A DNA stretch of 64,000 bases from Hyaloperonospora brassicae (taxonomy: Eukaryota; Oomycota; Peronosporomycetes; Peronosporales; Peronosporaceae). Location: NCBI GenBank assembly GCA_947650285.1, contig CANTFL010001484.1:186001-250000 (forward strand). Direction: 5' to 3'. Positions 2,221 to 43,787 of the stretch are shown piece by piece. A program made the translations under genes and the position numbers. Under the pieces are notes generated by a model. The model had not been told where the DNA came from. It did not search any database and saw only the letters and a list, made by a program, of their open reading frames with translations. Position 1 is the stretch's first letter. Every line of letters begins with the position of its first letter.

Positions 2221-2614
2221 TGTAACGGGGCACACCCTTGCGTGTACTTAACGCAAGGGTCTTGGGTGCCCCGACAGACGTACACGAGGCGAACGAGGAA
2301 GCGTAGGGTAGGGTAAAAGTAGAACTGTTATATAAATATAATTAAGTCTTTTAACTACTGTCTCTTTGTTTGACTGAACTTAATTAAGTTAATATAACTG
2401 AGTGTATAATGACGTCTCGTCACCACTCATTGCGCGCGTCCTGCGGCGATTGGTGGGTTGATATCGTCAAGATATCAACCCATGAACAGACTTTTTGGTC
2501 GACCGTTCAATATCACCACTTCGGTGATATTGTTCAAAGAATATTCAACTTCATATTCTTTGTTGTCACTTTCTTTTAAAGTGACAATTCCATGTAACGG
2601 GCTGCCCCGTTACA
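2221..2614 (-). repeat. 3' LTR of family-1 element
   Basis: 394 bp, TGTAACGGGG at the left end and CCCCGTTACA at the right, so 10-bp terminal inverted repeats with TG...CA ends. It contains at least five perfect hairpins, for example 2455-2465/2471-2481 (11 bp) and 2508-2517/2523-2532 (10 bp). Matches 9817-10207. Confidence 0.93.
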
Positions 2615-2626
2615 TCACCCCCCTTA
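2615..2626 (-). other. Polypurine tract of family-1 element
   Basis: On the minus strand TAAGGGGGGTGA directly abuts the 3' LTR, the expected place for the plus-strand primer of a Gypsy element. Confidence 0.75.
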
Positions 2627-2745
2627 ACTGATAGTCACCGCGTGACTATCGAAAATTATGGCGGCCACCCGTTGGTCGCCATTAAGACGGGAAGCACTTG
2701 TTGGGTCCGTTCCATTCACTTTCCGCTCGACCTCGCATAGTTAAC

Positions 2746-4353
2746 ATGTCTGTGCGGGGTGATTCAAGGCACACAGAGTCTGTACCTGTGCCAGCCTCTG
2801 CGGCAGACGATTCGTCGTCTGCTGCTCGTTCTTCGCCTGCAGCAAGAGGTGCTGCAGGTGCACGCGGTATAGCGCCGCGTGCGCATGATGACCCCGAGAT
2901 TGAGGTCATCTACTCTGGCGAGTCAGACGTATCTGACTCAAGCAATGCTGCAGAGGCGTCTCGCTCACCGGCGACGCCTCAGTGTTTGCCAAGGCGACTG
3001 CCGAACGAACGGACTCGTGAGTTGCAACACAGTCTGTTCGGCAGTGATGACGAATCTGATGATGAGTATGTTTGCTCATCACCGAAGTCAGCTCGTGCTC
3101 CTTCGCACGAGCGACCTGACGATGGTGCAACCCATCGTCATACTGAAAACCGTGGTACCAACAAAGGGACCACCGTGAAGCGAGATGAGCTGAAGCCGTG
3201 GCGTTTGCCCGAATGGCTCATCAATGGCTTGTCTCACGAGACAAGCCAACACCACCGAAGACCCTTAACGATGCGACTGAGCTTCACGGCTTGACTCCCA
3301 GCGCGAGCAACTTTCGCGCTGAAGAAGATTTTTATCTCGATGTCTTTCTTAGACATCGATGGTACAACAGCAACCAAAAGCGTGACAAAGCCTCTCTTTT
3401 GGCTGTGTGGAATGCGTTCGTCCAACACGTAAAGAATTTTGGACGAGAAGGGTGGCTCAAGAAACTTGAGGCGACACGCCTCAGGTTTGAAAAGCGAACG
3501 CCAACCGGTGTTAGGTACCGGTTGCACTGTTTGTCGAGTGAGGCAGGCATTCCTTGCCTCACATGGGGAGACCCTTGTGCGAGTTGTGTTGACAACTCGC
3601 AACGTGTGCATATGGATGTTTATTCCCTCGATTCTCCCTGGGGAAGGGCACACATCTCGGAGGAGATGCGTGACGCGATTGCAAACTTGCAATCCGTCTA
3701 CAAGCGCCTAGGGCGCGTGTTTACCGATGGGCCACAGGGCCAATCGGATGAACTCGTCATACTGGCGGACGAGACCTTCAACATCCATCAACAGCTGAGA
3801 GCGGGGCTCCCAGCTGTTCCAAGAGGGTGGATACCCCCGCCACTGGACGAGGTAGCTCGTCCTTGATCCTGAATCGTCACGGTGATTCAAGATACGCTCC
3901 AATAGGAAGCGTTGACCACCGTGAGAATCCACCAAAGGATGTGGTGGAGGAGGAAAGACCTCCTCCAGAACCCCAGGCCCAACATCTCGACCCTTACGAG
4001 ATGGATCGCGCAATCGATGAATTGCGCGATGACTTGAAGCACGAGCGCGACCGGCACTACTCTTTGACTGGTACCGTGCGGAAATACCGCAATGATCGCG
4101 AGGCTGATCAGGCGAGAGACCCCCCCCCCCCCCGATTACGCCACAGCGCAGCTTCAGGGCGAGCGGGATGTCCGCTCCTTATTCGGCGAGTTGGCGACAG
4201 CTCGCGGGGAGATCTCGGTTGAGTTCCGAGGTGTCATATCTGCGCGACCAGACGGATCGTCTGGAGCGAGAACGCAATAACTTAATGGATGTTTTGGAAC
4301 GTGCAGGCTATCTTCATAGGAAGAAGAAGGCTCGTACTGACAGTGCGGCCTGA
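2746..4353 (+). pseudogene. Antisense coiled-coil gene of family-1 element, frameshifted
   Basis: Plus-strand coding region inside a minus-strand element, between the integrase/chromodomain and the 3' LTR. Frames in order: 2746-3294 (Ser/Ala-rich acidic N-terminus, then KPWRLPEWLINGL), 3198-3866 (222 codons: EEDFYLDVFLRHRWYN, a WNAFVQHVKNFG helix, Cys pairs in GIPCLTWGDPCASC, a VHMDVYSLDSPWG segment, then WIPPPLDEVA), 3827-4133, about 4134-4220 and 4168-4353 (charged coiled coil, DQTDRLERERNNL, basic end KKKARTDSAA). Composition and the long middle frame look like real protein. At least three frame changes, one at the C14 tract (4120-4133), show decay. I do not recognise the family. Family 2 has an antisense coiled-coil gene in the same position. 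Confidence 0.6.
3708..4013 (-). pseudogene. Chromodomain at end of family-1 pol
   Basis: The minus strand encodes GGQRFLLERILNHRDD, then SYLVQWRGYPPSWNSWEP: the aromatic cage and beta-strand pattern of a chromodomain (Y-L-V-W-G, W-W-E-P). In chromoviruses this end of integrase targets heterochromatin by binding methylated histone H3. It is detached by frameshifts from the integrase upstream. The plus strand of the same bases encodes part of the antisense gene. Confidence 0.8.
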
Positions 4354-6015
4354 GTCGGCCCACGTAAAACGTAGGATGCGTGCGCATCTTACGTGGCAAT
4401 TCGAGTGTATATGCATTGCCCTTGCGATGCAACACTCGAAATGGCTCAAAGTACTTCGGCAGTAGTTAATTCTGCCGACACTAGTGACTGCATGTCCAGG
4501 TAAATTTACCGTAGACAGTAGTACTAGGTCGTTAACTTTAAATGAAAGAACATTTGCCCTTCCATTCTTGTCTGCTTTCCGTTTCTGGCGATCCACCGCA
4601 TTTGCGATGGAGTCCTGAACGAAACGGACTACCGCTTCTCGAGTCAGCAGGAAGTTCTCTGCTGACTTTGTTTTGTCTTTCAGTGCGCTTCGTGCGCACT
4701 GCTAAGAGATTGTTCTCTTCTTCAGCGAGGTTGTCTTCTGCCTCGCTGGCATAACCGTTGACGATGCTGAATATACCGGCATCGTCATCATCATCCGATT
4801 CAATAATAGCGTCGCCGCTATTATTGAGGTGATCTTCTTCATCTATGTCGACCTGATCGACATCGGCATCATACGTGACGACGTTAGCGTCGACACGTGA
4901 TGAGCAAGAGCCAAAACGATTTTTGCTCGAGCGAGTCCCTCCCCCCTTATTCAAGAGTCACACTCTAGAAGGGTGGGCACACGTGGATGGCGTAGGCCAT
5001 TCACGTAAAACGGTTTGTGCTGTGCTGAAGCATGCACCGAATTATTGATGTCGAATTCCACCATGGGTAGGAATTCGCTCCAACTCGGGAACGAGTGGAC
5101 GTATCCTCGAAGGATTTCTTCGAGGACACGGTTCGCACGTTCCGTCTGACCATCTGTTTCGGGATGGTCAAAAGTGGACATCTTCAATCGTGTTCCCAAT
5201 GTGCGTAACACGGGTTGCCAAAATGCCGCCGTAAATCGAGGGTCACGGTCGGATACGAGTTCACGGGGTAACTTGTGGAGTCTAAAGACCGTGTCTAGAA
5301 AGACACGAGCATAAACTTGAGCCTTGATCGACTCAGGGACAGCAGCAAGATGCACCATCTTGCTGAACCGGTCAACAAACAAAAGAATACCATTATTCTT
5401 GTGAGCGTCTTCGGGTTTCCCGAAGACGAAGTCCATTGAAACGTACTGCCAGCACTCTGTCGGAACAGGCAGAGGCTGCAATGGCGCACGGGATGAAGTA
5501 CTACGCTTCACCCGTTGACAAACCTCGCAAGTACGTATGTACTTGCGGACAAACTGATACTGGCGTGGCCAGTAGAAGTCACGACTTACCTTGAGGTACG
5601 TCTTTTCTCTACCACAATGGTCACATATTGGGGCATCGTGACACTCATACATGATGCGTAAACGCAAATGATGATGAGCGGATACGATGACACGCCTCGT
5701 GTCGTCGGCAACAGCTGTATAGTACATCAATCCGTTGCATGTACTATACCGATCCGATGCGGATCGGTACAAAGCTGGTAAATCCCTCATGGATTTACTG
5801 GATGGATTCACAAGATGATCCATCAATCGCAGAAGATCATTATTTTCCGCGTATGGTTTTCGTACGTCGTCAAGTAAGCTTGACGACAGACCACTGACTG
5901 ACAGTGTCGCAACAGTGGGCTTATCCTCGCCGTTGATTTGTGCGTCTGGCTCGAAATCGGGCCGGCGCGAAAGCGCATCAGTGACGACATTGAGTCGTCC
6001 TGGTTTATACTCCAC
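4154..6015 (-). pseudogene. Integrase of family-1 element
   Basis: Frame 6015-4951 begins with the end of RNase H (YKPGRLNVVTDALSRRPD), then a zinc-binding N-terminal domain (H...H...CEVCQ), the catalytic core with D in MDFVFG, D in SDRDPRF and E in DGQTERANR, so the D,D,E triad is intact. The frame stops at 4951. Later pieces in other frames carry an Asp/Glu-rich linker (4954-4538), NDLVLLSTVNLPG (about 4500) and HPTFYVGRLRPHCQY (about 4380), the usual region before the chromodomain. Frameshifts disable the tail. Confidence 0.85.
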
Positions 6016-7361
6016 GGAGAAGTTATACTCCGCGAAGAAAGACAGCTACCTCGCCATCCTTTCCGAGAGGTGTGGGCTGGTTACGGCCGTGCGTAATGAC
6101 GCATGGTCCGTATAGACAACAAACGGTCTATCTCCCAGGAGATAGACGCGAAACTTAGCCAGTGCATATTTCATGGCAAGGAGTTCCTTGTCATGCACTG
6201 GTTAATTGCGCTCAGCTTCTTGCAGCTGACGCGACTGATAACAGATGACGCGCTCTGCGCCATCTGCATCGAACTGCATTAACGCACAGCCGATTGCAAA
6301 ATTGCTGGCGTCACAGACCACATGAAATGGTCTGTCCTGATCTGCAATCGCGAAGATCGGCGATTGCATCTAGCTTTGCTTGATACCCTCGAAGGAACGC
6401 TGTCACTCATCGTTCCATGACCACTTGACATTTTTCTTGAGCAAGCAAGAAAGATGTACCGTCATCTCTGCGTAGTTGCGCGAGTACTTGTGCAAGTACG
6501 CCGCAAGACCAAGGAACTTTCGAAGTCCCTTGACATCGACTGGCACTGGCCAGTCGGTGATCGCCTTGATCTTTTCGGGATCAGGGCGTACGCCGTGTTT
6601 ACCTACGGTGCACCCGTAAGTGGTATTTCGCTAGCCGCGAATATACACTTCTTGAGGTTTGCGTACAACTTATTATTGCGCATAAGTTGAAGAACCTTAC
6701 GGACGTGAGTTCGGTGGACTTCTACTTCCGTCTTTCCGTCCATAGCCGGGCTATGGACGAACACATCGTCGAAGTAACTCGGTGCAAAGTCTCGCACCGG
6801 TCTCAACAGATTTGTAACACATCTGTTGAATGTTGCAGGGGCATTGCTCAGCCCCTGTGGCATAACTAGCCACTCCCACAGCATCCCTCTGGGGGTACTC
6901 ACTGCCGTGTACGGGATGTCCCGTTCACGCATGAGGATCTGATAGAACCCATCCATCAGATCCATGGACGAAAAGATGGTACTCTTTGACATACCATCTA
7001 TGATTACGTCCTTCCTCGGTATCGGCGTCTGAGCCGGTACCGTTGCAGCATTTGATTTGTTGAACGCGTGCACTATCCTCCATCTTCCTGTGGCCTTTCG
7101 CACACAGAAGGTCGGAAAGCTGTGAGGGGATGTCGATTCCCTCACATGGCCCGCTGCTAATAAATTGGCAAAGAACTTGTCGATCGCTAGTACTTGTTCA
7201 CGAGGCGGTGGACACTGCTTCATGACACAGTACTTCGAGCCCGGTCTGATCTCGATCTCGTGTCGAGTGCCTTTGTCCTTAGGCAACTCGCAAGGCACGG
7301 ATTCAGGGAACACATCCCTGAATTCAATCAAACCCTTATACAAAGGATTTTCCTGAAGCAA
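6016..7361 (-). pseudogene. Reverse transcriptase and RNase H of family-1 element
   Basis: Frame 7361-6603 carries RT: a FRDVFPESVP approach segment, SSMDLMDGFYQI (catalytic D), VMPQGLSNAPATF and the YFDD box (SYFDDVFVHS). The frame breaks at about 6603. Connection and RNase H continue to 6016 (VVCDASNFAIGCAL, NxPVHDKELLAMKYAL, VVYTDHASL) with in-frame stops TGA and TAG near 6390 and 6370 and a TAA near 6205. RT could be functional; RNase H is not in one piece. Confidence 0.85.
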
Positions 7362-7713
7362 CTACCAGGATTGAGATTCGTACCTCTCAATCCAAGTCCT
7401 CTCATCGATGACACTTTCTCTCTTCGATGAGATGTTGAACAACCGTTCATTCTGATCAAATTCTGTTGCCGACCAAATATCGGTCATATAATCATCCTCT
7501 GTGATGAGTATGCAGATCTGCTTGACTTTGTCACTACGGAGATTACGCATAAACCATTTTAGCTCTAGCGTTGGCAATGGTTTATCTCCGAAATTAACTT
7601 CGGAGGCACAATCAGAGCAAGCGTATAAGCGCCTACGCTTGATCCGTCTTTGACCAATACGTTCAACGTCTCGGTTTCTTCGTGGGAACTAGTTTCTACA
7701 GGTTGCTGAGATC

Positions 7714-8532
7714 CTAATCCCTTAGCAGGTGACCCTTGAAGAATTCTTTCCTCAAGTACGTGGGGCTTATTCCCTCGACGTCTTCTGACTGTGGCTGTGC
7801 AACCACAGTCAGGGACCGATCCTCTACGGTCGACTCTCCAGTCGACCTAGGATTTACATGTTGACCTTTGGGGGCAACAGGTTTCTTTTGTCGAAGATGC
7901 TGCCCGCTAGGCATGCATCCATGTCCCGGTCCACTCGACTTATTCGAGTGGTGGACCTTCGACGCAGCCTGTACTTCTGTACAGCCGCCGAGAGCTTGCT
8001 CCACAGTGTAGTGATCAACTACACTGTGATCTTGTGCAGTCGTGCTAACGACCGAACCGCAAGTGAGGCCATCGCACTCACTCGCAGAACATCCACACGC
8101 TTGTGGACGCTCCAAGATGTTCATCAGATGGCCATCTGATGAAAAAGTGGCTGGCATCTTCACAGATCGATGCTGCCAGCTCACCCTTGGCTCGTACTTT
8201 CTGAGCCAAGGTAATCCCGGGATGACATCAAATTTGTCATCCAGATCTAGTACGATGAAGTCATCATCGTACTCTTCGTCCTCCAACGTATAGTGGATTC
8301 CTACTACACGTTTCTCAACGGTAATCGATGCGCCTGTTGCAAGGCGCACCGTCATCCTTGTAAGGGGAATGTCGCGCTCAACGGACTTGAGCCTACGACC
8401 CTCTAGTGACTGGCGACGAACAAAGTTGTTCGACGCCCCACAGTCGACTAGGGCACGAAGCGACAAATCATTTGTCGCTTCCAACTTCAAGGTGATGAAC
8501 GAAACGTCATCACCAGGTGCAGAGACACGCAA
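7714..8532 (-). CDS. Retropepsin-like protease region of family-1 pol
   Basis: 272-codon frame. The active site is ALVDCGASNNFV (D-C-G in place of D-S/T-G, frequent in Gypsy proteases), followed by VLDLDDKFDVIPGLPWLRKYEPRV, the second half of the fold. The C-terminal 130 residues are a low-complexity linker towards RT. It is one frame away from gag, as expected for a frameshifted gag-pol. The given start is only the first ATG in the frame; the natural product would come from a polyprotein. 7362-7713 encodes more linker in broken frames. Confidence 0.75.
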   Translation of the reverse strand: MRVSAPGDDVSFITLKLEATNDLSLRALVDCGASNNFVRRQSLEGRRLKSVERDIPLTRMTVRLATGASITVEKRVVGIHYTLEDEEYDDDFIVLDLDDKFDVIPGLPWLRKYEPRVSWQHRSVKMPATFSSDGHLMNILERPQACGCSASECDGLTCGSVVSTTAQDHSVVDHYTVEQALGGCTEVQAASKVHHSNKSSGPGHGCMPSGQHLRQKKPVAPKGQHVNPRSTGESTVEDRSLTVVAQPQSEDVEGISPTYLRKEFFKGHLLRD

Positions 8533-8611
8533 TGATTGTGTATCTGGAGCAACTTCGTCAAGAGATTTGCAAATTCTCTTGAGGTTGCTGGATCAGTAGG
8601 GCGCTCCGCCC

Positions 8612-9772
8612 CTACTGACCCCGACCATTTTTTGATGGTCCGTCTCGCTGTTTCGGCTTCGCAACAGCGCTGGACCCACGCCCATTGCCCTTTCTGGAAA
8701 AAGGTCGTCCATTTCGCTCAGTACTGTTTGGTACTGGGCGTGGAGCACTACACTCGAATGCGTAGTGCCCTAACTTCTGACAGCGATTGCACCTCTGCAA
8801 TCGCTTGTTGTTTAAAGAGCGAGGTCGCTTGCTCTCAACATAGCAGAGGTCCATTGGTTCTGGACCTCCTATCTCTTGTCGTCTTGGTGGACGGTAAGAG
8901 TTTGAGCTAGCATGAGCCTGTCTCATGCTAAAGTCTTCCTGTTCCGCGGCTGACATCGCTTCTTCAAGCGTATTCAGCTCAAGGCGGAACAGGTGGCTCC
9001 TGACGGGACCTTCTGCGAGCCCTTGCATGAACACCGTAATCAACGTGTGTTCATGAACTGGGTTAGCAGTTATACTACTCGCTAGGAGTCGTATATGTTG
9101 AGCGTAAGCGTGCACATCACGCTTACCCTGCTTGAGTTTCAGGAGCTCTGAACGAGCCCTGAACTCAGCCCGTGGCGGCACAAACGTTTGTCTGAGCCGG
9201 GACTTGAAGTCATCTAGCGACCTAAACACATTTGGGTCGCTACTCTCGAGTCCCAGGGACCAAGTTTTGGCACGCCCTGCCAATTGGGTCTGCGCAAATG
9301 TGAGTTTTGTTTGCTCATCTTCGATGCGACTTGCATTTATGGCTCTGTCGAGCTCAATGGACTATAACAACAGGGAGATTTTTAATACTCCACTGTACTT
9401 GGAGATGTCAACCTTCATGACCTCGGGACGACGCGCATGTGCCGTCCCGCCCACAGCAGCATGGAATTGCTTCTGCTGCTGTCTCAACAGCTCTGTCTGT
9501 TGAGCACCGAGTTCTCTCAACTGCTCGGCCTGTTGAGAGCATTGCTGGTGAAGCAAGGCTACTTTCTCCCTTTCGGCGACAAGTTCACTTTGGATGAACT
9601 TGGCTATAGCGGCATGTTGTTGGTCTCTGTCTAGAGACTCCAACATGGCGCTAATGGCGAACTCGCCTACGGTAGAACTCATTCGTTCTACCGCACCCCA
9701 TTCGATGTCACTCAAATGGGTAAACCCTTCACGCGTGGCGTGAAAGGTCTCTTCATCATCCAACATGTTCAT
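8612..9772 (-). pseudogene. Gag of family-1 element, one nonsense codon
   Basis: One reading frame of 387 codons interrupted by TAG at 9364-9362 after KVDISKYSGVLKISLLL. Residues 1-136 include DIEWGAVERM and a Gln-rich coiled coil. After the stop the frame continues with SIELDRAINA, LAGRAKTWSLGLE, the retrotransposon-gag domain (FVPPRAEFRARSELLKLKQG), and a CCHC zinc knuckle CNRCQKLGHYAFEC near the end, then a basic tail. Capsid/nucleocapsid role by family. The start MNMLDDEETFHATREGF is shared by the fossil copy at 14842. Confidence 0.85.
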
Positions 9773-9800
9773 GTTGGATGTTGTGGTCCTTGGAAGGACT

Positions 9801-9814
9801 ACAAAGTGCTACCA
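9801..9814 (-). other. Primer-binding site of family-1 element
   Basis: Minus strand TGGTAGCACTTTGT starts two bases inside the 5' LTR. TGG complements a tRNA CCA end. I cannot name the tRNA. The fossil at 14788 has the related CTAGTAGCGCTTCGTAG. Confidence 0.6.
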
Positions 9815-9816
9815 GG

Positions 9817-10207
9817 TGTAACGGGGCACACCCTTGCGTGATCTTAACGCAAGGGCTTAGGTGCCCCGACAGACGTACACGAGGCAAACGAGGAAGCGTA
9901 GACAAGGGAATAGTAAAACTGTTGTATTAATACAGTTAAGTTCTATAACTACTGTCTCTCTGTTTGACTTAACTTAATTAAGTTAATATAACTGAGTGTG
10001 TAATGACGTCTCGTCACCACTCATTGCGCGCGTCCTGCGGCAATTGGTGGGTTGATATCGTCAAGATATCAACCAATAAGCAGACCCTTTGGTCGCTTCA
10101 CCAATATCACCACTTTGGTGATGTTGTTCAAAGAATATTCAACTTCATATTCTTTATTGTCACTTTCCTTAACGTGACAATTCCATGTAACGGGCTGCCC
10201 CGTTACA
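9817..10207 (-). repeat. 5' LTR of family-1 element
   Basis: 391 bp, same TGTAACGGGG/CCCCGTTACA ends as 2221-2614. By eye the two LTRs differ at roughly 35-45 positions plus small indels. In both, changes fall mostly in loops or spacers while the stems of the main hairpins are largely kept. Confidence 0.93.
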
Positions 10208-10590
10208 ATAAAGGCGAAACACCACCACCAATTTACTGGGGATTTTGTCATTTTTAGATTGCGACAAGATCATATAAATGGAATGAGGCAGTCGATACAT
10301 TTCTGAAGGTCTCTAGCATGCGTCTATTGATGGGTGCATTGTTTACATTAATGGTGTATAATGCATCTTGTAATATTATTGTTTACAATTGTTTCCGTCT
10401 TGTAATACATTATATTCTTGTATTGTTTGGATGATTTTTTCTCATCGAAGGGCGCTTTATTTAATCTTCATGATTATCTGGCTTTTGCGGCTTTCCTGAG
10501 CTAATTATTGGTGGTTGGCGCTGCGTGACCGAATTTTGGTCATTTCGAGATCCCCCTTCAGAATCGACAACAACACCGCTAACGACGAGC
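10208..10590 (+). promoter_or_regulatory. Upstream region of effector copy 2 with Inr-like motif
   Basis: AT-rich 380 bp between the family-1 LTR and the effector ATG. TCATTTC at 10540-10546 is the Inr-like motif, 45 bp before the ATG. From about 10483 rightwards it matches 1-109 of copy 1 with a few substitutions and a one-base length change; 10208-10482 has no counterpart in the window because copy 1 begins at the window edge. T-rich repeats of CTTGTAAT lie at 10370-10430. No gene is seen. Confidence 0.5.
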
Positions 10591-11829
10591 ATGTGCCCCT
10601 ATTCGTTACTGCTCTTCGTTTCCACTACAATTCTGATACATCTCACATGTACATGGGGTGCTTCCGGGTCCTCGATGTCGAAGGTCAACGTCACCACTGA
10701 CTTCGCTCTCTTCAATGACGACAGCAACGAGGTTCCTGTCAACTTAATGTCGAAGGCAAAGGAATCTGGGGAAGAGGAAGAAAGGGTGCTAAAGGAGATC
10801 TCGAGCGAGCGAATAAAAACGTTTCTGGAGGCCCTCTACGAATACCGCAACGGGCACATGATCGCCCCAGCTAGTTGGAGTCGAGTGATCAGCGAGGATG
10901 AGGGACTGTTACAGCACGTGTACGCGCTGCACTCTGCGGAGTACGAGCAGAAGAGTGCAGCGATGCCAGAAAATTTAAACGTGGATGTACCAATCTTCGG
11001 AGAATATATATCAAGTGCTAAAAAGCTGGTCGAAAACTCCAGAATGACGGAGCTGTCGCGGACCCTAGCCGGTACGGAAACAGGACGTTTTATCGAAGGC
11101 TTGAGGTCAATTGGTTACTTCAGCGAATTTAGTATCGGCCGCGTGCGGGCGCTGACAAAGTTTCTCGATGGATTGAACGCGCAAACGGGTTCGGAGTACA
11201 ACGTGTTCGAGATACTTTCGCAAGGCGTTGGCGGCCTCGACAAAGTCGCATTCTTTTTGTCGTCTTCGAAATTGAGTCCTCTTACTAGTAAGGATGCAAC
11301 AGCGATTCAAAAGGACTTGCTCATGTGGTTGCGAGACGTTAAAGGAAAGTCCTTTGATGATGTTGCAGTCTTGCTGGGGTTCGCAACGCTGCCGGTGAAT
11401 AGCTTGACCTTCGAAAACATGGATACTTTGATCGCATACGTTGCACTGCGCGACAACCTGAAGTACAATCGGGCCCGCTCGGTAGCGCTTTTTCATCTAA
11501 GACAAATGTTGGGCGATTTCATAGTCACTAATTCAATTTTGAACGGGATGGAAGAGGTTCAGTCTGCCAAGTCGTTTCTAAGAGGAGTTCATGACACAGG
11601 CGTTGCATCGGCGGGCAAGGAGGACAACGCATTCGCCATAAAGCTTCAGCATGATTTGTGGACTCAATGGTTCGAGCATGGCCTCATTTTGAAGGACCCG
11701 GACCAGGACCTTCGTTACGTACCACGTGAGCTCAAAGAGCGCGTTGTCACTGCATTCAATGCGTATATTCAAGCTGCAAACAAGGCGTACTGGAAGAATC
11801 ATTTGACGTTGAGACCCCCGGGCACTTGA
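10591..11829 (+). CDS. Secreted EER/LWY-type effector candidate, copy 2
   Basis: 412 aa, same domains as copy 1: signal peptide 1-23, EEEER at 61-65, LWY-like module about 240-300, no RXLR. By eye only three bases differ from copy 1 in the coding region. All three are G in copy 1 and A in copy 2, and all change the protein (V14I in the signal peptide, D293N, D314N). The ATG at 10591 is preferred over in-frame non-ATG codons upstream because copy 1 is out of frame there. Both copies look intact and expressible. The E(z)-derived pseudogene follows after about 20 bp. Confidence 0.8.
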   Translation: MCPYSLLLFVSTTILIHLTCTWGASGSSMSKVNVTTDFALFNDDSNEVPVNLMSKAKESGEEEERVLKEISSERIKTFLEALYEYRNGHMIAPASWSRVISEDEGLLQHVYALHSAEYEQKSAAMPENLNVDVPIFGEYISSAKKLVENSRMTELSRTLAGTETGRFIEGLRSIGYFSEFSIGRVRALTKFLDGLNAQTGSEYNVFEILSQGVGGLDKVAFFLSSSKLSPLTSKDATAIQKDLLMWLRDVKGKSFDDVAVLLGFATLPVNSLTFENMDTLIAYVALRDNLKYNRARSVALFHLRQMLGDFIVTNSILNGMEEVQSAKSFLRGVHDTGVASAGKEDNAFAIKLQHDLWTQWFEHGLILKDPDQDLRYVPRELKERVVTAFNAYIQAANKAYWKNHLTLRPPGT

Positions 11830-14394: not shown

Positions 14395-14936
14395 TCGTCA
14401 ATCAACATCACTCGAGAAGAGGTGATGCAGGCGGAATATTATCCTCAAGGGTAATGTCCTTGGGTGCTCCACTATTTGGTGATGTGGACCACATCAACAA
14501 AATCAACCACCGACCGCTGCTGGAGGTGCGCAGTGGGTGGTGAGAAAGAAGAGACCCACATAGGAGATGGTAGTTTACTATAGTTAGACCAAGACAAAGA
14601 TGATTTACAAAGAAACATACCTATGTGAAATAACCGTTCTACTTTGCTCTCAGACAGAGCTTTCGTGTTCTGTTTGCTTCGGTTTCGCTTTCTCGCCACG
14701 TGTACGTGACGTCAGGAGCACGCAGCCTTATGTTCAGCCAACAGAAGGTCTTGCCAGTCGTCTGGCAAGAGCGTGCCCTGTTACACCTAGTAGCGCTTCG
14801 TAGTCCTCAAAGCGACCACAACCACCTTATTCAGCATAACCATGTTGGATGAGGAGGAGAGATTTCACGCCACGCGTGAAGGCTTTATCCATTTGAGTGA
14901 CATCGAATGGAGTGCTGTAGAACGCATGGGTTCTAC
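14395..14936 (+). mobile_element. Fossil family-1 element: diverged 5' LTR and gag start
   Basis: An LTR-like stretch to 14785 ending in CCCTGTTACA, a PBS-like segment, then from ATG 14842 a gag start reading MLDEEERFHATREGFIHLSDIEW, clearly related to the family-1 gag at 9772. It is cut at 14937 by the family-2 LTR just after the hairpin GTAGAAC...GTTCTAC. The rest of gag is not found in the window. Hairpins typical of family 1 are present. Confidence 0.75.
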
Positions 14937-16345
14937 TGTGGAGAAGCGCAAAGGAATGACGATGTAAAGTGTGGATCGCGCCTCCTTAATTAAGCGCGAG
15001 ATCGATTTGATTGGTGGAGTGCTCTCGGAGATAGGCCCGTTGGCACGAGGAATGTGTCTAAACGACTGAGTGACAGAAAAAGACGGTTGGAGTTATGCGA
15101 ATTGATCTACCTTAAGTTTTAAGAAGGAGTATAGTCAAGGATCGATGATTGACCGATCACGATCCGCGATCGAAGGTTTGGATCACCAAAGTACAAGGAC
15201 CGGATCGCTTAAGGGGTAAACATCAATTGGAAATTTGGGTCGCTAACGACAATGGAAGATAGGTGGATATGGAAGCAAGCTGAAAGGGTAGATCGTCAGG
15301 ATAATCAAGTATGCGAAGTTTCGGAAGTGACGGCGATCCTACCTTGGATACCCGATCGAAGATGCAACCGTTCGACCATGATCTATCCTGGGTGTGTACT
15401 TATGATCGGTGTCGACACATAACTGTGTGGTCACATATTTGGCGTGGACACATAGTTGGTGTGGCTCACATACCGCGATCAACTATCCCAATGATACACC
15501 CGAGCGATCCACCACCTAGCGATCCACTTTGGAGCGATCCACGGGAGACATGATCGGCGTGGACACATGATCGAGGTGGATCACATAATTGATATGGATC
15601 ACATACCGCGATCCACTACCTCGCGATCCACTACCTCGCGACCCATTGCACCGCGATACACTTTACCGCGATCCACTATGAAGTGTCTGCTATGGACCAC
15701 ATGAGGCAAGAAGTGAATTACATAGACAGGCGGTGCACAACAGTTGACCTAGCTAACAGGTACGCATAGTCATAGGGTTTAGATTTGGTTGGTTGACATT
15801 AAACAGAATTGAATTTGCAACGAAAGACACGCGTCGACTTCTCCCGGGCAGGATCTTTGGCCTCCCTTTGAATAGATAATCACCCACGTCTCAGCGAACT
15901 TCGCCCTTGGATCGTTTGACCAGGCGGAAAGTCAATTCTCACCCCCCATCAACTGCGATGGAACCGGTGAACCTTACGGTTCAGATTCAAGATCGCGAGA
16001 CGGCTCAAGAGGTCAGAAGGCTCGCGGATCAAGCATCACCCCTGGCAAAGGCGACTCTGGGAGAGCGCACGAGTGTACTTGCGATCGATCGAAGAATTTC
16101 CACGCGATCCGCCCCTACGTTTGACCGAGTGTAGAATTTCCACCCGATCAACCTGTCCCTAAGACGGTCAATTTCAGCTTCAGCTCAAGTCCGTCAAGAA
16201 AAGCGCAACCCGAACCACTGACGGGTACACAGGGTGAGCAAGAAGACACAAAGCACGGAATCGGGGTACCCCTCCGTTATTCGGTCGTCCGGGCGCCAGT
16301 GGAGAGTCGGGATCACAAGCAAATTGTGATCACCACTCCACCACA
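14937..16345 (+). repeat. 5' LTR of family-2 copy A
   Basis: TGTGGAGAAGCG at the start and CTCCACCACA at the end (TG...CA, with TGTGG/CCACA inverted ends). 1409 bp, about 400 bp longer than the other two LTRs because its U3 carries a longer repeat field (about 15200-15680). Conserved from 15690 (TGTCTGCTATGGACCACATG) to the end with 27190-27890 and, inverted, 37954-38610. Confidence 0.75.
15390..15682 (+). repeat. Two interleaved short tandem repeats in U3 of copy A LTR
   Basis: About seven imperfect units of GGTGTGGATCACATA (17-20 bp) followed by about eight units around GCGATCCACTACC (12-14 bp). The copy B LTR has shorter arrays of both (38615-38745, inverted). Likely promoter or enhancer repeats by position. 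Confidence 0.6.
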
Positions 16346-16384: not shown

Positions 16385-16634
16385 TGAGTCCCTGAGCAAA
16401 TAGTCAAGATCAAGACTGAACCTGGGATAATCGCCAGCGGCAGAGGGATCGTCGCAGACGCGTGGAGATGAAGGATCTCCGGATCGTCAAAGTTTTGGGA
16501 GGGGCTTTGACGACAAGAAAAGAAAAGAGGAAGATTGCTCGCACGGTCCGAAAGAAAACCTCCAGCTCCCTCCTGACGCCCCTCCGAGGGCCACAGCGGA
16601 TCGCACTGCAAAGCGCGATCCGCAGGATGATAGT

Positions 16635-16889
16635 GTGAAGGGAATCCCAAACCAATTTTCATTTATATTCGATGAAATATCAGAGATGATGAAGAGAGAG
16701 ACAGGATGTTCGGAAGACATTAAGAAGCCGGATGAGGCTAAACAAGATCGAGATGTTTACAAGAACAAGCCAGCCGGATGCAAGGTCAAGACGGAGAAGA
16801 TGGATCAAGCTTCACAGTCAGTATATCGCGAAGTGAATTTTGAAGATTGGCGATTCGACGAGATCAGCCGGGAATATCATTTGCAGTAG
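16635..16889 (+). CDS. Small leader ORF of family-2 copy A
   Basis: 84 codons between PBS and gag (FIFDEISEMMKRETGCSED, then Lys/Asp-rich, ending FDEISREYHLQ). The same ORF, with one visible residue change, is in copy B (37408-37662, minus). Could be the real N-terminus of gag separated by a stop. No family recognised. Confidence 0.35.
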   Translation: MKGIPNQFSFIFDEISEMMKRETGCSEDIKKPDEAKQDRDVYKNKPAGCKVKTEKMDQASQSVYREVNFEDWRFDEISREYHLQ

Positions 16890-17097
16890 ATGAAGAGGCC
16901 GTTGTCGCGCGATCCAGTGCTTAAGACGATCAAGACAAAGCTGACCGGATCGCCACGCGGACCGATATCTGCACCTAAACCAACTTCCAACGTGTTAAAG
17001 GCGTTCCAACGTCTAATCAATCTACTAAAGGAAGCGACGTTCACTGCGGGAACGTTCAATTCATGCGCAAACTCTACTAGAGTGCAACCACGGTCGA

Positions 17098-18725
17098 GTG
17101 ATCGCTGCCGGACAGTCGCTGTTCAAGACGTTGAGTACGCTTCTAGACATACGTGACCCCGTAGACAACCCGACCCCGCCGATCGGCATCTCGGGTCAAC
17201 GGATCACACCGCGAATCACGATGGATCAAGTTCTCACGCCACATAATGATTTCTCTGAGGTGGAACACACTGGATCGTCCCGATACGCTTCAGCGGAATC
17301 AGAAGAGGACTCGAACGATTATTTCGAGATCCAACGGATGTCACTAGGACCAAGGGGTGCGGATCTGTTGCGAAAGAAATTTGAACGGAACGAGGCATAG
17401 GCGCAGGCAGGAAAGCCACAGGCGACGCAGTTCATGAACATAGTGAAATCAGATCAGGCGAATTCCTATTTTCAAGCGGCCGTGAAGAAATATGAGCTGA
17501 GACAAGCCCGTATACACGGCGGACGATCGGCTATTCACCCACCTGAATCGGAGATTGATATACCGGATATTGACATGGAGTCGATTGGATTGCGTCTTTG
17601 TAGATCGCACGATCACGATCGTGTGCGTTGTAAACAAGATATTCAGAGATTGCCACAGGTGGCAACGGCAGGGTTATCGGATGGTGGTGGGTTCGATGAC
17701 CAAAGGATTCGGATGTCTGCCATGGCCGAACTAAAATATTTTTTTGGACGAAAGAAGAATGGAGAACGGGCCAGAATCTGGATCAGTAAGGTGAAGTCGA
17801 CGTTCCTACGCGATCAGGTGCCTGACGCGGAAAATTGTCTGGTGTTCAGCGATCTACTCATGGGACCAGCGCGTGACTGGTATGACCAGCTCAGTCGCCC
17901 GACGAGGACTTCGTGGAGAGCACTCCTGGAAGGATTCATGGCCAAATACGGAGTGAATAACAGCATTTTGGTTGGGAGACTCTACTACCAAGCACGTAAG
18001 CAATCGAACGAGACTCTATTGGCGTACTTGAACCGTCTGAATGTGGCTGCGAATCCGGGCGAAGATATCGATACGAGATGGAACGTCTGCTATCCGTAAG
18101 TAAAATGTAAACCATTACATCAGTACCCTGGACAATCGCGATCGGGCGAGAATGTTGACAATTTTACGCCTTGGAGATGTAGACGATCTGGAAGAAACTC
18201 TGCAAGAATGCGAGAACATGAAAGTCCGAGAATCTCATGCCTCCATGGGGTCGAGCAAATTTCGACAGCGTCTTACTCCACCGGCGGCCCAAATGCCAGT
18301 GAAACCGGCCCGGGCTGTGAGAGCAATCCACGTGAAAAGCGAGAGTAGTGAATTAGACGTTGACTCCAGCGGATCGAATACTGGATCGACGAAATGTGTA
18401 CATGGCTGCAGCTGCGGATCGCGCTCAGAATCCGAGAAATCCACTCATTCGAAGTGAGCAAGTTGGCCGCGATCGGCACTACGATCGTGAAAAGCCTCAA
18501 ACAGTATGCAGGCACTGTGGGTCGAATAGGCATGACGATCGCGGATGTTGGAAGAGACTTAAGTGTCAGAAGTGTGGACGTAAGGGTCATCCTGCGGGCA
18601 AGTGCTACTACGTGTGTTCCGTATGCAAGGACGTCCACGATGAAGGAAAGTGCTCGATGGAACAGTTTTACAACATGATCCGTCAGTGGTATGTGTCGAT
18701 CAAGCATGCAGGGATGTTGCTGTAA
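17098..18725 (+). pseudogene. Gag and zinc knuckle of family-2 copy A
   Basis: Frame 17098-18099 is continuous except for TAG at 17398-17400. It holds a disordered acidic part, then the gag core (ELKYFFGRKKN, ARIWISKVKSTFLRD, MGPARDWYDQLSR, FMAKYGV, YQARKQSNETLLAYLNRLN). The frame stops at 18099; the protein goes on in a second frame from about 18110 (LRLGDVDDLEETLQECENMK) and a third from 18360 with two knuckle-like Cys clusters, CRHCGSNRHDDRGCWKRLKC and CQKCGRKGHPAGKC. Copies B and C share these breaks. Confidence 0.8.
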
Positions 18726-19034
18726 CAAGCCAAAAACATGCTACATTAGAACGCTCGCTAGGTTGGAATCTGGTACGAGCCGAGCGTTCTAGGCTCTGCA
18801 TCAATGCATTTGTGCAGAGGAAGTGGGTCAACGGAGGCGAGGACAAGCAGGATGATCGGCAAAATACATGTGAATCTTCAAACTGTCTGCGTTCCATTTT
18901 GAGTGTTAGACGACGACATGATGAGTACGCCGGGTCACCCACCAACATGAAACTTGTCTTAGCACCAGGCGAGTTAAGGGGATACTGTAAATACCATACA
19001 CCAGGAAAATGGTTCTAGCAAGCTAAAGTGATTG

Positions 19035-19683
19035 AAAAGATTAACAACGAAAATGTTACAATGCTACTGGACTCAGGAGCTGCGATCTCGATCGTGGAAA
19101 CTGCCATTGCTCGTAAGGTATTATGAGTCATCGACGAGAATCAGAAACAGGAGTGTGTGGGGATAGGTGAAAACACGTACATAACCGAGGGACGTACCAG
19201 GATCAAGATCACCCTCAATGGATCGCTGGTGTTTTACTTTGCTGTGTGGTTGGGGATCAGGTCGGTCAAGAAGCGATCTTGGGTATTAATTTCTTTGGTA
19301 CCCGCAGGTATACGTCTGGATTTAGCTGGTGGGACGCTGGTATTGCCGGATGAAGGGAGGATTTAACTAGCAGGTCGCAGACCTCTGTATGGATCGTCCT
19401 TGCAGCCGATCGTGATCCCGAAACAGCATGTAGTTCTACCGGTTGGTCGATTGACATAGATAAGGATCGGTAATATCCAGTTCAACGCCAAGCTGTGGGT
19501 TAGGCGCGATCCAACATTGGTACCCACCGTGACCACCGGGATGGGTCGGATCAAGTACTTGCATCTGACAAATCTCAGCGATACAGAAGTTACCCTCGAT
19601 CGCGGCCTGGCTTTAGGCTGGACTATGGCTGCCGATATGGTGTCTTACTATCCACACTACGTCTCGGCTGGATCGCGACGATA
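19035..19683 (+). pseudogene. Protease region of family-2 copy A
   Basis: Active site NVTMLLDSGAAISIVE (D-S-G) at about 19050, then ARKVL and a TGA at 19124, TEGRTRIKITLNGSLVFYF, IRLDLAGGTLVLPDEGR, TAG/TAA stops, then a C-terminal stretch LWVRRDPTLVPTVTTGMGR. A 55-bp patch at 19415-19470 differs from copies B and C at about 14 sites while the flanks are near-identical. Confidence 0.7.
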
Positions 19684-20440
19684 AAACGAGTGGCAGACTC
19701 TAGCATTTGAAGCAAGGAAATGATAAGGGGAAGAGCCGCCACCCGAATACGCTGGTCCGCTTGTGGATCACCCACCTTAGCCTACGCCAAAGAAGATTTT
19801 ACGTCGACCAAAATAGAATAATGAATCAGCGGACAGCCTTATACGAGAAGAGAAAGTTGTTCCATGTGTGGAGCCACTAACATGTGTCGTTAACACGATC
19901 GAGGAGACGGACAGAGGTGATCGAGTACCCGAGGGGCCAATGGAAGGAGGCGAAACGACTAAGGACAGTAACACCGATGAATAGCATAACGTATCTTGTA
20001 ACGTGATCGATGACCTACAAGTGGATCAGCGATCAACAAGCGTACTACCTGTGGTTAACGTGATTTGAGAACAAGTGATGAACGCCGGAGCAGGCGATTA
20101 GTCGAAGAAAGAGGCGGGACCTTCACTAGATGTACATATCGATGAAAAGCCATATCCAGAGGATGACCACATCGCGATAAAGCCGGACGTCTTTAACTAT
20201 CTTCATGAAAGTTGGGAGCTGTATGTCGAGGATGTGGATCAGCACATGGAGGTATTGCCTGACATTGTTATGCCTACTGCCAAAATTACGATTGACGATA
20301 TTTAGGTAGACGATCCAGTGGTACCGCTGACTGAAGACCAAGCACGATTGAGACAACCGATCTGGAGCAACAAGCACCTTTTTATGGGTAAAAAGGGACG
20401 CAATCCCTTCAGCCGCACGGGGGTCGATACGCGATATTGA
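19684..20440 (+). pseudogene. Protease-RT linker of family-2 copy A
   Basis: Broken frames. The clearest is 20101-20304 (SKKEAGPSLDVHIDEKPYPEDD, then LPDIVMPTAKITIDDI), an acidic linker typical of this part of pol. The matching frame in copy B is 33992-34222 on minus. Confidence 0.5.
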
Positions 20441-20441
20441 C

Positions 20442-21500
20442 GTGGGTGGAGCGAGCCCGATCGCGCAGAGAGTACGGACAGTAGCGCCTAAGTTTCGCGA
20501 AAAGCTAGCGGATTTGATTAAAGGACTACTATCAGCCAATATCATTCGACCTTCCACATCACCGTGGGCTTCGCCGATCGTCCTTATCATCGAGAAGAAT
20601 GGCGAGAACATTCGATTGTGTATCGACTATCGACGGGTAAATTAGCTGACAAGGCTGATGGTGTACCCAATGCCATTGATCAATGAACTATTACGAGACA
20701 TGGACAAAGCGATGTGGTATTGCTTACTGGATATGGTAAGCGGTTTTTGGGTGGTGGAGATGACGGAACGAGCAAGAAGTATTTACGCATTCATTACGCC
20801 ATCAGGCTTGTTTGAATGGCTACGGATGGCGTTTGGGTTATAAAGATGCGCCGCAGATTTACCAACGCCTGATCGACAATGCATTGTATGGCTATTTGGA
20901 GATCGGGCTGACCCAGATGCACCCTCGATGGAATCGTCAAAACGGATCGATGTATTCACAGGGAGAGAACCGGAAACCAGTCAGACACCTTCTGCGCTAG
21001 GTCGAAGATCGTACATCGATGACATATTGATTCCAGATACATCGTGGACCTCTTTATACGAAGAGTGGAAAGATTGCTACGTGTATGCAACAAGTGGAAT
21101 TTGTCGATCAGCGTGACCAAACGTTTTTGGGGACGGCGCAATGTGGATTATCTCGGTCATCGAGTATCACTCGTGAGATTGGAATCCAACCCGAAGGATC
21201 TCGGATAGCTGGTAAATGTTCCGTTTCCTCGAACGCTGCGGTCGATGCAGTCGTTTTTAGGGAGTTTGAATAACTATAGCCGATTCATTGAAGACTTTGC
21301 GATATACGTATCAGTGCTCTACGAATTACGCGAAGCAGATTTCCACGAAATCCGATGCATAGATGAGACGGAATCGTCTACATTGAACGAAAAGAGAGTT
21401 GACAATAAAAAAGTCGTTGTGATGGCGATACAGACCTTAACGTTGTTACAGGGGGCAATCCGACCTCAACCGACAGAAGTCGATGGGAGAAAGCAATGAT
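20442..21500 (+). pseudogene. Reverse transcriptase of family-2 copy A
   Basis: RT motifs in order over three frames: VAPKFREKLADLIKGLL, SPWASPIVLI, LCIDYRRVN (TAG at 20643), YCLLDMVSGFWVVEM (catalytic D), RMAFGL (TAA), APQIYQRLIDNALYG, then SYIDDILIP (YIDD box) at about 21010. It ends with FLGSLNNYSRFIEDFA at about 21250. Not translatable as one protein; copy B has the same breaks. Confidence 0.8.
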
Positions 21501-22000
21501 CTCGTTCACGATGTTGAAGGATAAGATCGCTAAGACTACGATTCTTAAACATTTTGATCCGGATCGCTCTCCAGTGATCGTGGTCTATGCTAGTAAATTC
21601 GCAGTATCTGCAGCTTTGCTACAAGAACACGAAGGAGTATACTGGCTTGTAACGTTCACCAGCCGAACGATAAAACCCAACGAGATTAACTATGGAATGG
21701 TGGAAAAAGAGGTTTTAGCTCTGCCGCACATCCTGGATATCGGCTACACTATGTTGATTGCACGTGAAATCAAGATGTTCACACGTCATTCGACGTTGGC
21801 CTGGCTGGTACAATCTTCAAGCCTGAACGGGAGGCTTGGGAGATGGGCGGCGTTGTTATCGAATTGGACGCTGGAGATCAAGACGTGTGAAAAGGGAGAA
21901 GATGAAATACTGGGTACACTCACCGCCAGCATAACCCCGCGCGAAGAAGTTGACGAGATGTTGATCGAGATCTCCCCTAGGAAGCAGCCAAAACATGCTA
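21496..22000 (+). pseudogene. Gypsy RNase H of family-2 copy A
   Basis: Within the 228-codon frame 21496-22182. Motifs: FDPDRSPVIVVYASKFAVS, ALLQEHEGVYWLVTFTSRTI, NYGMVEKEVLALPHILD, MFTRHSTLAWLVQSS, ending WTLEIKTCEKGEDEILGTL, the usual junction after RNase H. This is the ancestral RNase H of the element. Confidence 0.75.
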
Positions 22001-22029
22001 CAAGTATGACACCGCCAACGGTGAAGGAG

Positions 22030-22815
22030 AGTGAAAGTCGTTGGGTGGTCAGTTTCGATGGATCGGCCCGAACCAAACGAAAAGGCGGGGCATATAGCGC
22101 AATAGTATGGAAGATCCCAGAATGGAACATAGTGACTGCTGCAGCCAAATATGCGACGGACTTGACTGTGAACGAGGCTTAATACCGTCAATTGCTACTA
22201 GGTTTCGATCTCTCGGTCGATCAAACGCGGGGGTGCATCATCATATGTCGCGGTTCTACCTTAGTGATCCGGCAGATGCGTGGAGAAATCGATTTCAAAG
22301 CGCCCGGATTGCAGTCGCTTTGTCATAAGGCTATGGAGAAGCTCCGATCATGGTCGGTCCACCAATTCCTACATATGAAGAGGGACCAGAATCAGAGTGC
22401 TGGTCGACTGGCAAGCAACGCTTTTCGACATGAGCAAGGCTCGATCACTTTATACGATCCGGATCGTCAGGATTTATGTTCGTTGAACCAATTGGACGAG
22501 TTGTTGACACCCAAAGGTGTCGATCAGGTCGTAAAAATAGCTGCCGTCACTAGGTCAGCCGTAAGGAGACGGCTATCGCCGGAAGTACTGCAAGAGGAAG
22601 TCGTTCGGCAGGTCAGAATCGAGAGAATCAAGCAAGCAAAGGAAGAGGAGAAGTGGATCGCCAACCTGAAGAAATTCCTGATCGGGGAAATAACGAAGCT
22701 GAGTGTCGAAGAAGCGAAACTATGTTCTCGGAACGCGTCCGAATCTGAAGTAGACGAGAGCAGACGATTGTTTTTATACCCTCTATCAACGGAAGATCCA
22801 GATTATCGGGTGTAG
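22030..22815 (+). pseudogene. Second, plant-like RNase H of family-2 copy A, catalytic residues lost
   Basis: A second type I RNase H follows the first, as in oomycete Chronos/Archon and plant Tat elements. WVVSFDGSARTKRKGG keeps the first Asp. At the next catalytic site (usually AEY) the codon is TAA (NEA, stop, YRQLLLGFDL; 22180). The usual GDS is CRGS, and the usual AD before LA is SAGRLAS. So three of four D-E-D-D residues are gone; copy B matches. Residues after 22430 are a helical, Lys/Glu-rich linker to integrase. Confidence 0.7.
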
Positions 22816-24240: not shown

Positions 24241-24448
24241 GGTGAATAACCGATGTGTCGAATCGGAAGTTTCCTGCAAGAAGGTTGCAGATGTGAAAAA
24301 GGGAAGGGTTGTGTGAAGCGATTCAGGATATCAAATTCGATCGCAGTGAGTAATTAGAAAAGGCAAATGAGATGAATTTCAGTGATGATCAACAAAGAAA
24401 AAACGATGGAGATAGATTGACCGATTTAAATGGACTGCCGGATCGCTA

Positions 24449-29848: not shown

Positions 29849-30059
29849 TAGCGATCCGGCAGTCCATTTAAATCGGTCAATCTATCTCCATCGTTTTTTC
29901 TTTGTTGATCATCACTGAAATTCATCTCATTTGCCTTTTCTAATTACTCACTGCGATCGAATTTGATATCCTGAATCGCTTCACACAACCCTTCCCTTTT
30001 TCACATCTGCAACCTTCTTGCAGGAAACTTCCGATTCGACACATCGGTTATTCACCCAA

Positions 30060-33855: not shown

Positions 33856-33991
33856 GTCAATATCGCGTATCGACCCCCGTGCGGCTGAAGGGGTTGCGTC
33901 CCTTTTTACCCATAAAAAGGTGCTTGTTGCTCCAGATCGGTTGTCTCAATCGTGCTTGGTCTTCAGTCAGCGGTACCACTGGATCGTCTAC

Positions 33992-35270: not shown

Positions 35271-35571
35271 TTAGCTTGCTAGAACCATTTTCCTGGTGTA
35301 TGGTATTTACAGTATCCCCTTAACTCGCCTGGTGCTAAGACAAGTTTCATGTTGGTGGGTGACCCGGCGTACTCATCATGTCGTCTTCTAACACTCGAAA
35401 TGGAACGCAGACAGTTTGAAGATTCACATGTATTTTGCCGATCATCCTGCTTGTCCTCGCCTCCGTCGACCCACTTCCTCTGCACAAATGCATTGATGCA
35501 GAGCCTAGAACGCTCGGCTCGTACCAGATTCCAACCTAGCGAGCGTTCTAATGTAGCATGTTTTTGGCTTG

Positions 35572-43400: not shown

Positions 43401-43787
43401 GTGTCCGAACCGTAGCCCTTTTGACTGGCATACGATCGATCAGCTCATTCTTTTACTACACCGGGCGTATAGTACCAAAGTTATAGGCGTAACAGTACCC
43501 CTCTTCTGTATGCAACTGCATATTGCAGTCATTTGTGACGCTGGATGCGATATGTTTAGTCTTCTACGTAGCAGATATATATGGATTATGGAACTCCTCA
43601 ATCAAAATGTCTATATAAATGATACAAATTCGTATTGACATCAGCCTGTCTTACGAGAAAGTCGTCCTGGTCTACCAGCGAGATCGCTCGAGGAATCTAC
43701 CGAATTATAAGAGGAGAAGAAAGGTCTTAATAGGGATATCCACAGGATCTTTGACGAACGCAATAAGCTGTATCGCCTCATCAAGTA

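Follow-up and report, generated by a model that had tools for sequence, protein, structure and literature searches.

A Ty3/gypsy retrotransposon of the oomycete Hyaloperonospora brassicae is tiled from end to end with short perfect hairpins, whose base pairing has probably been maintained by selection. The element occupies positions 2221-10207 of the window, i.e., the whole 64,000-nucleotide (nt) stretch of DNA analysed here (assembly GCA_947650285.1, contig CANTFL010001484.1, positions 186,001 to 250,000), with its sense strand on the minus strand, and is referred to as family 1 (F1). Perfect inverted repeats with arms of 7 nt or more and loops of 3-20 nt number 112 in the whole element. They are carried by the long terminal repeats (LTRs), gag, pol and a long open reading frame (ORF) on the antisense strand, in agreement with the original prediction, made from the letters of the window alone, that coding and non-coding parts are tiled alike. 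The best reading of the analysis is that F1 may work like the genome-scale ordered RNA structure (GORS) of RNA viruses, although its carrier is a retrotransposon, its hairpins are perfect and strand-symmetric, and its mean folding-energy excess surpasses the whole-genome viral values found.

Hairpins were counted throughout as perfect inverted repeats with a loop of 3-20 nt, the arm threshold being stated each time, and the dinucleotide-shuffle expectation for 2221-10207 is the mean of 10 shuffles. The 112 repeats with arms of at least 7 compare with 6.9 in these shuffles, and the corresponding counts are 83 against 1.8 for arms of at least 8, 51 against 0.4 for at least 9 and 24 against 0.0 for at least 10. 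The predicted density beyond chance also holds against codon-preserving shuffles: the four coding pieces of the window copy contain 6-10 arms of at least 8 each, with shuffle means of 0.2-0.6 (maximum 3 in 100 shuffles each), while pol of F1 contains 57, with a mean of 1.4 and a maximum of 6 in 60 shuffles. When these four pieces are taken together with gag and pol of F1 and of two related families, FA and FB, all ten coding pieces exceed the codon-shuffle maximum (60 or 100 shuffles) for arms of at least 8, the narrowest margin being that of FA gag (3 versus a maximum of 2). Mirror repeats of the same size number 4 in the window element (1.9 when shuffled) and direct repeats are not enriched in F1 (1, with 0 in one shuffle); thus, the excess is specific to reverse complements. 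FA has 9 direct repeats (0 in one shuffle), which contain a tandem repeat. The 13 individual hairpins originally listed are all present exactly where they had been placed, and nine of them extend by at least one further pair. The hairpin noted in an integrase core motif is a 10-bp one at 5343-5365, inside SKMVHLA, and its version in FA is compensated, a G-C pair being replaced by A-T.

Other parts of the window lack the tiling: positions 17001-37500, which hold another Gypsy element (family 2), have 3 arms of at least 8 against 4.9 in shuffled sequence, and positions 37501-64000, which hold the E(z)-like SET gene for which this had been claimed, have 9 against 6.5. Two Copia loci were considered as tiled elements and rejected. 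One of them, L045, is slightly enriched in arms of at least 8 (3 versus 0.45) and shows no folding excess. In the other, L046, 9 of the 11 arms of at least 8 sit in a tandem array of TGACGTCA palindromes with a 13-bp period (L046:538-611), an arrangement that imitates hairpin enrichment.

All DNA compared comes from one genome, the 100.6-Mb host assembly of 898 contigs, in which a 901-base query yielded 2045 first-look F1 candidates, the 40 scored being 99-100% identical to the query. Twenty further F1 copies were retrieved and 18 delimited as full elements; L012 and L019 were left out since delimiting gave a single LTR. The tiling is present in 18 of the 18, a positive outcome of the suggested check of family members elsewhere in the genome. 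A 5-bp target-site duplication flanks 16 of the 19 delimited copies and is absent from the window copy, L013 and L023, so the LTR identity of these three is not a clean clock. The nine youngest copies (LTR identity 98.5-99.7%) carry 13.9-14.8 arms of at least 8 per kb and the window copy 10.4 per kb, and the more alike the two LTRs of a copy, the denser its hairpins (rho 0.79, n=19; rho 0.73 for the 16 copies with target-site duplications). Hairpins are densest in young copies and sparser in old ones; thus, they are a property of the lineage that replicates and erode once a copy has inserted. Arm lengths in the nine young copies peak at 8-10 with a maximum of 13, and loops peak at 4-5 nt; L013 has one 14-bp arm with a 2-nt loop, so that duplexes rarely exceed about 14 bp in F1. 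In the four copies examined, about one half of the element lies in hairpins with arms of at least 6, and the density of arms of at least 8 ranges from 8.5 to 20.5 per kb over seven segments of the young copy L021, so the trait is spread over the whole length of that copy. The spacing of 20-40 bp originally proposed was overstated for the window copy, which has one perfect arm of at least 7 per ~71 bp; a median start-to-start distance of 38 bp is reached in four young copies with arms of at least 6. Regular spacing was rejected, since the coefficient of variation of the gaps (1.02-1.14 in three copies) is near that of random placement (0.99); hairpins are dense, not periodic.

Folding of the RNA, which had been suggested as a check, was computed in 150-nt windows of the sense strand for z scores and in non-overlapping 300-nt fragments, with 12 shuffles each, for the energy excess, and both reveal a strong excess. 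In L021, the mean z score is -5.9 per 150 nt, with 98% of 53 windows below -2, followed by -4.0 in the window copy, -2.2 in FB, -1.4 in FA and -0.1 in the window's other Gypsy. Likewise, the folding-energy excess averages 51.5% in L021, where none of the 26 fragments falls below 29.7%, 37.9% in the window copy, where the minimum is 16.0%, 17.7% in FB and 13.6% in FA, compared with -2.0 to 0.0% in three controls and -0.6% in the other Gypsy. L021, the window copy, FA and FB therefore exceed the GORS threshold of about 3% (PMC3950689). Published viral values, which differ from the present ones in details of method, are 10.9% (7-11%) for hepatitis C virus and 9.0% for murine norovirus (PMC3950689), and ~15% for SARS-CoV-2, with a local peak above 50% in ORF3a and 23.4% as the highest value recorded (PMC7642675). 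Sense and antisense strands of F1 fold about equally by both measures.

The evidence for selection comes from variation among copies. Stems were defined in six old copies and variants were those common to at least two of the nine young copies, columns with fewer than eight of the nine young letters being skipped; because stems were taken from old copies only, their definition cannot favour sites conserved among the young ones. The partial loci L035-L038, L043 and L044 stand in the 25-sequence alignment, outside the young and old sets. Stem sites carry such variants at 38 of 2371 positions, loop sites at 44 of 778 and sites elsewhere at 204 of 4820 (p=9e-10). The same is observed in the LTRs only (stems 4/286, loops 8/85, other 38/406; p=6e-6) and at third codon positions of gag and pol (5/505, 13/158 and 55/1037, respectively). 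When stems are taken from the three old copies with target-site duplications, variants amount to 22/2175 against 226/5058 elsewhere, and stem masks moved by 30-60 nt as a control are 3.5-4.5% variable. By contrast, changes private to old copies fall equally on stems (251 at 2142 sites) and on other sites (614 at 5094; p=0.73); thus, a genomic difference in mutation rate does not explain the low stem variation. FA tends the same way when six references are pooled, with stem variants at 0/1408 sites versus 111/24409. Moreover, the GC content of F1 arms falls with their length (rho -0.29, p=4e-4), a correlation that is not significant in FA or FB, and stems of FA and FB are GC-rich (0.60 versus 0.52 overall and 0.63 versus 0.54, respectively), both being signs of selection on stability. 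As judged from these sequences, the pattern indicates that base pairing would be selected during replication, LTRs and third codon positions included.

The trait is not unique to F1, since two related families are tiled at lower density while the distant Gypsy of the window is untiled. FA is represented by L039 and L040 and FB by L041 and L042, bases 1701-9701 of L041 being used because the 5' LTR of FB was not delimited. Their pol products are 49% (FA) and 50% (FB) identical to that of F1 and 63% identical to each other, and arms of at least 8 number 32 in FA (1.8 shuffled), 61 in FB (1.5) and 117 in L021 (1.9). Hairpin centres are shared at 3 of 58 positions between F1 and FA (0.9 expected) and at 6 of 20 between FA and FB (0.6 expected). 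Some shared hairpins are compensated, e.g., AGCAAGATG/CATCTTGCT in F1 versus AGCAAAATG/CATTTTGCT in FA, or GTTCCTGG/CCAGGAAC in FA versus GTTCTTGG/CCAAGAAC in FB. The few shared centres and the compensated pairs together imply that most hairpins turn over and that some persist through double changes. L047, considered as a possible third related family, proved to be a further FA copy 98.1% identical to L039; it retains identity at 136/136 and 153/154 stem sites and at 98.1% of other sites. Hairpin compatibility was also assessed from proteins only in other species: among relatives at 80% or more, 51 of 96 real and 118 of 293 control cases were compatible, the cases not being independent, and below 80% real and control cases were alike.

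The overall best explanation, to which we give roughly even chances, is that F1 is a retrotransposon counterpart of GORS, kept by selection, whose hairpins shield its transcripts. Accordingly worded as a mechanism, the whole length of F1, from the LTRs through gag and pol to the antisense ORF, would be kept as a dense string of Watson-Crick hairpins by selection acting during replication. Transcripts, perhaps those of the antisense strand as well as the sense ones, would form these hairpins, and folding would reduce access for complementary RNA, be it transposon-silencing small RNAs or the element's own antisense RNA, because a transcript consisting mostly of short hairpins would leave few open stretches for guides or antisense RNA. 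At the same time, the stems would stay too short to serve Dicer well, stems of 8-13 bp being short for this enzyme. Phytophthora small RNAs comprise classes of 21 and 25/26 nt, the longer one derived mainly from transposons (PMC3804510). Shielding from complementary RNA, the function that fits best, is tentatively proposed for the hairpins, and it is more speculative that an LTR-retrotransposon lineage has converged on the whole-genome folding of RNA viruses and pushed it further, with more than 100 mini-hairpins below Dicer length as armour against complementary RNA. As for their birth, synonymous tuning probably accounts for some new hairpins and multi-base changes by template switching for others, and we read them as being selectively retained afterwards.

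Several observations weigh against this explanation. The main puzzle is the missing tolerance of G-U pairs, because selection on sense RNA only should tolerate them: the one-mismatch stems of L021 comprise 6 G.T, 10 A.C and 8 other mismatches, and variants in stems comprise 16 G.T versus 32 A.C. Moreover, in the part of the 3' region that lies beyond gag, pol (to 5501) and the LTRs, stem conservation is weak (25/596 versus 81/1285, p=0.07), the hairpin centres shared by F1 and FB (2 of 58, 1.7 expected) are at chance level, and random spacing is not what a weakest-link shield would predict. The balance of G.T and A.C shows no significant difference between stem and non-stem sites (p=0.29 for shared and 0.16 for private variants), and the one-mismatch stems of FB (3 G.T, 0 A.C) are too few to judge. 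Pairing is Watson-Crick without a clear G-U preference and is strand-symmetric. Either selection on both strands (sense plus antisense RNA, or RNA plus complementary DNA (cDNA)) or a templated origin would explain the missing preference.

Among the rival explanations, an artefact of composition, codon usage, low complexity or assembly is hardly credible. Composition is excluded by the dinucleotide and codon shuffles together with the background level of mirror repeats, re-use of one hairpin sequence was rejected given that the 8-mers common to two hairpins are, among those listed, the two LTRs' own, and independent copies lie on many contigs. A non-functional mutational origin deserves more attention and is nevertheless improbable: reverse transcriptase (RT) would switch templates in quasi-palindromes and copy one arm from the other, perfecting imperfect repeats. 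Perfect stems outnumber one-mismatch stems by 32 to 2 (2.4 expected) in FA and by 61 to 6 (3.1 expected) in FB, a nearly all-or-none pattern of the kind interpreted as a sign of conversion in hairworms (PMC6649704). F1 also has multi-base alleles that alter the hairpin, at alignment columns 236-273 and 7182-7218, and template switching is described as a source of multi-base changes in 39 yeast genes (PMC8604942). At columns 7182-7218, in the 3' region, a 13-bp GGTGGTGAGGAAT stem and a 9-bp GGTGATGAG stem occupy the same place, resembling a block swap. Both the turnover of hairpins between families and 20 variants common to young copies, each of which creates by one change a pair that old copies lacked, would suit such an origin. 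However, one-mismatch stems are in excess in F1 itself (24 versus 2.0 shuffled in L021, 25 versus 2.2 in the window copy), so that its stems are not all-or-none, and pair-breaking one-sided variants outnumber compensated ones, both among variants shared by young copies (8 A.C, 5 G.T and 6 other, 19 in total, versus 1) and in all 25 aligned sequences (75 versus 8). Directional overwriting of one arm was rejected, as the 5' arms of F1 resemble other families to the same degree as its 3' arms (between FA and FB, arm similarity differs slightly, 0.72 versus 0.67), and lineage-specific hairpins are 5 of 130 records by one criterion. The register linking third codon positions is rare in F1 pol (8 of 57, the others being 24 and 25; p=0.008), with no register bias in FA or FB. 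Unbiased arm conversion should not slow non-coding evolution, yet LTR stems are conserved (4/286 versus 38/406), which template switching as the sole cause does not predict. Thus, of the two causes originally put forward, selection for structure is upheld by the conserved stems, LTRs included, while template switching is improbable as the only cause and may still give rise to new hairpins.

A structural role in the element's cycle, namely packaging or compaction of the genomic RNA, pacing of RT or folding of the minus-strand cDNA, is likewise unlikely, although the constraint is confined to the replicating lineage, Watson-Crick and strand-symmetric pairing suits single-stranded DNA or both strands, and loops are A-rich on the sense strand in F1 (0.311 versus 0.243 elsewhere) and FB (0.273 versus 0.233), that is, T-rich in minus-strand cDNA. 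FA has no such loop bias (A 0.227, T 0.241) and A-rich loops suit a folded sense RNA equally; moreover, the distant Gypsy of the window lacks the excess, so the cycle itself does not require hairpins, and packaging signals are usually few and local. Selection on both strands, by which sense and antisense RNA would each stay folded and avoid annealing into long double-stranded RNA, would account for the missing G-U preference and for the equal folding of the strands, and we regard it as rather doubtful. It draws on the antisense ORFs of the three tiled families examined, all on the minus strand of their loci: 540 aa in F1 (L021:6044-7663), 505 aa in FA (L039:7201-8715) and 465 aa in FB (L041:8229-9623). 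The F1 ORF measures 539-540 aa in four young copies, and its protein has eight database relatives at 48-49%, the named ones coming from Hyaloperonospora (labelled core-binding-domain protein) and Peronospora, while an alignment of the FA and FB proteins over 200 aa has 43% identity. Variation shared among F1 copies peaks at the third codon positions of the F1 antisense ORF (0.150 versus 0.080 and 0.115), and such conserved long ORFs with this pattern of variation make antisense transcription plausible. On the other hand, the F1 and FA antisense proteins give no convincing alignment (best E 0.018), the antisense ORF is tiled no more densely or sparsely than pol (14.2 hairpins per kb each), and a tblastn search of the untiled Gypsy found no match to an antisense gene, such proteins diverging fast. 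The structure predicted for the antisense protein family has a mean predicted local distance difference test score (pLDDT) of 47, a long C-terminal helix being its sole confident part.

Against known systems, the proposed counterpart of GORS can be placed more precisely. GORS consists of consecutive unbranched stem-loops with duplexes below about 14 bp, poor positional conservation and less diversity at paired sites (PMC7642675, PMC3950689). F1 resembles it in the sequential stem-loops along the whole length, coding sequence included, in duplexes rarely beyond that length, in the lower diversity of paired sites, in pairings poorly conserved between relatives and in the large folding-energy excess. 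The differences are that GORS belongs to positive-sense RNA viruses whereas the carrier here is an LTR retrotransposon, which would thus work like GORS without being a member; that F1 has single perfect stems of 7-13 bp, whose pairing follows Watson-Crick rules and is strand-symmetric; and that the mean excess of a young copy, computed from sequence, is 51.5% versus 7-11% in hepatitis C virus and 23.4% as the highest viral value recorded. A second precedent is provided by the coding palindromes of Nematomorpha mitochondria (PMC6649704), which share with F1 perfect arms inside conserved protein-coding sequence and gain and loss between relatives, with FA (and nearly with FB) the all-or-none perfection, and, in their long phase-3 repeats, a feature comparable to the rarity of the third-position register in F1 pol. 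They are, however, mitochondrial and up to 284 bp long, whereas F1 is a nuclear retrotransposon with arms of at most 13-14 bp, more than 100 hairpins per element, hairpins in its LTRs and evidence of purifying selection; in addition, FA and FB lack the register bias and F1 has one-mismatch stems in excess. Quasi-palindrome template switching (PMC8604942) makes arms identical and causes multi-base changes, but it produces occasional mutations instead of a dense array and alone does not predict conserved LTR stems. The original statement that no such element had been described therefore needs qualification: viral GORS and the hairworm palindromes are close precedents, while no report of hairpin tiling in any retrotransposon was found among the titles and abstract openings listed in a literature search in which subscription papers and preprints are mostly missing.

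If this reading is true, a retrotransposon would have been shaped end to end, in coding and non-coding sequence, by selection on base pairing. Copies of different age in one genome would then constitute a fossil record of the structure in which births, losses and compensations are readable, and the purpose of genome-scale RNA structure (sensing, RNA silencing, packaging or copying) would become testable outside the interferon system.

Concerning the anatomy of the window copy, all parts of the element proper lie on the minus strand. The 5' LTR (9817-10207, 391 nt, TGTAACGGGG...CCCCGTTACA) and the 3' LTR (2221-2614, a 394-nt match to the former) are 90.1% identical; F1 LTRs have TG...CA ends, span 391-394 nt and reach 99.7% identity in other full-length copies. 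A broken gag with capsid and zinc knuckle lies at 8615-9808 (92% by tblastn with the 396-aa gag ORF of L021), an assignment supported by Pfam matches to Retrotrans_gag and the zinc knuckle. It is followed by pol at 4705-8717, with protease, RT, RNase H and integrase split over several broken frames (78-91% in tblastn pieces when the pol ORF of L021 is the query); its matched domains are RVP_2, RVT_1, Integrase_H2C2 and rve. The order gag, then protease-RT-RNase H-integrase, was established with Pfam on the L021 ORFs, and in the window copy gag, protease, RT and integrase are found in broken frames. This order and the 5-bp target-site duplications are shared with Ty3/gypsy elements of Peronospora and Phytophthora, from which the named integrase relatives of F1 also come, those of Peronospora being closest; a search of IMG/VR for F1 relatives confirmed none. 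Opposite the 3' end of the element, a remnant of the long antisense ORF is located at 2731-4344 on the plus strand (tblastn 77-96%, five pieces). Dense hairpin runs include one of six hairpins (arms 9-12) that lies partly in the 3' LTR and partly next to it (2454-2650), one of five (arms 7-11) in the integrase ORF (5717-5887) and another of six (arms 7-11) in the protease ORF (8002-8273).

Beyond the ends of F1, positions 1-370 and 10483-10851 of the window are repeats of each other with 96-99% identity and a spacing of ~10.48 kb. Given this flanking repeat and the lack of a target-site duplication, the F1 locus may be a product of recombination. At 14797-14940 the window retains traces of another F1-related gag (71% over ~47 residues), and at 42265-44859 those of an older relative (31-40%). 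Finally, positions 16429-24866 and 29431-37868 form a large inverted duplication with 8438-nt arms that are 99% complementary and separated by 4564 nt, and these arms carry the second, distant Gypsy element in opposite orientations.

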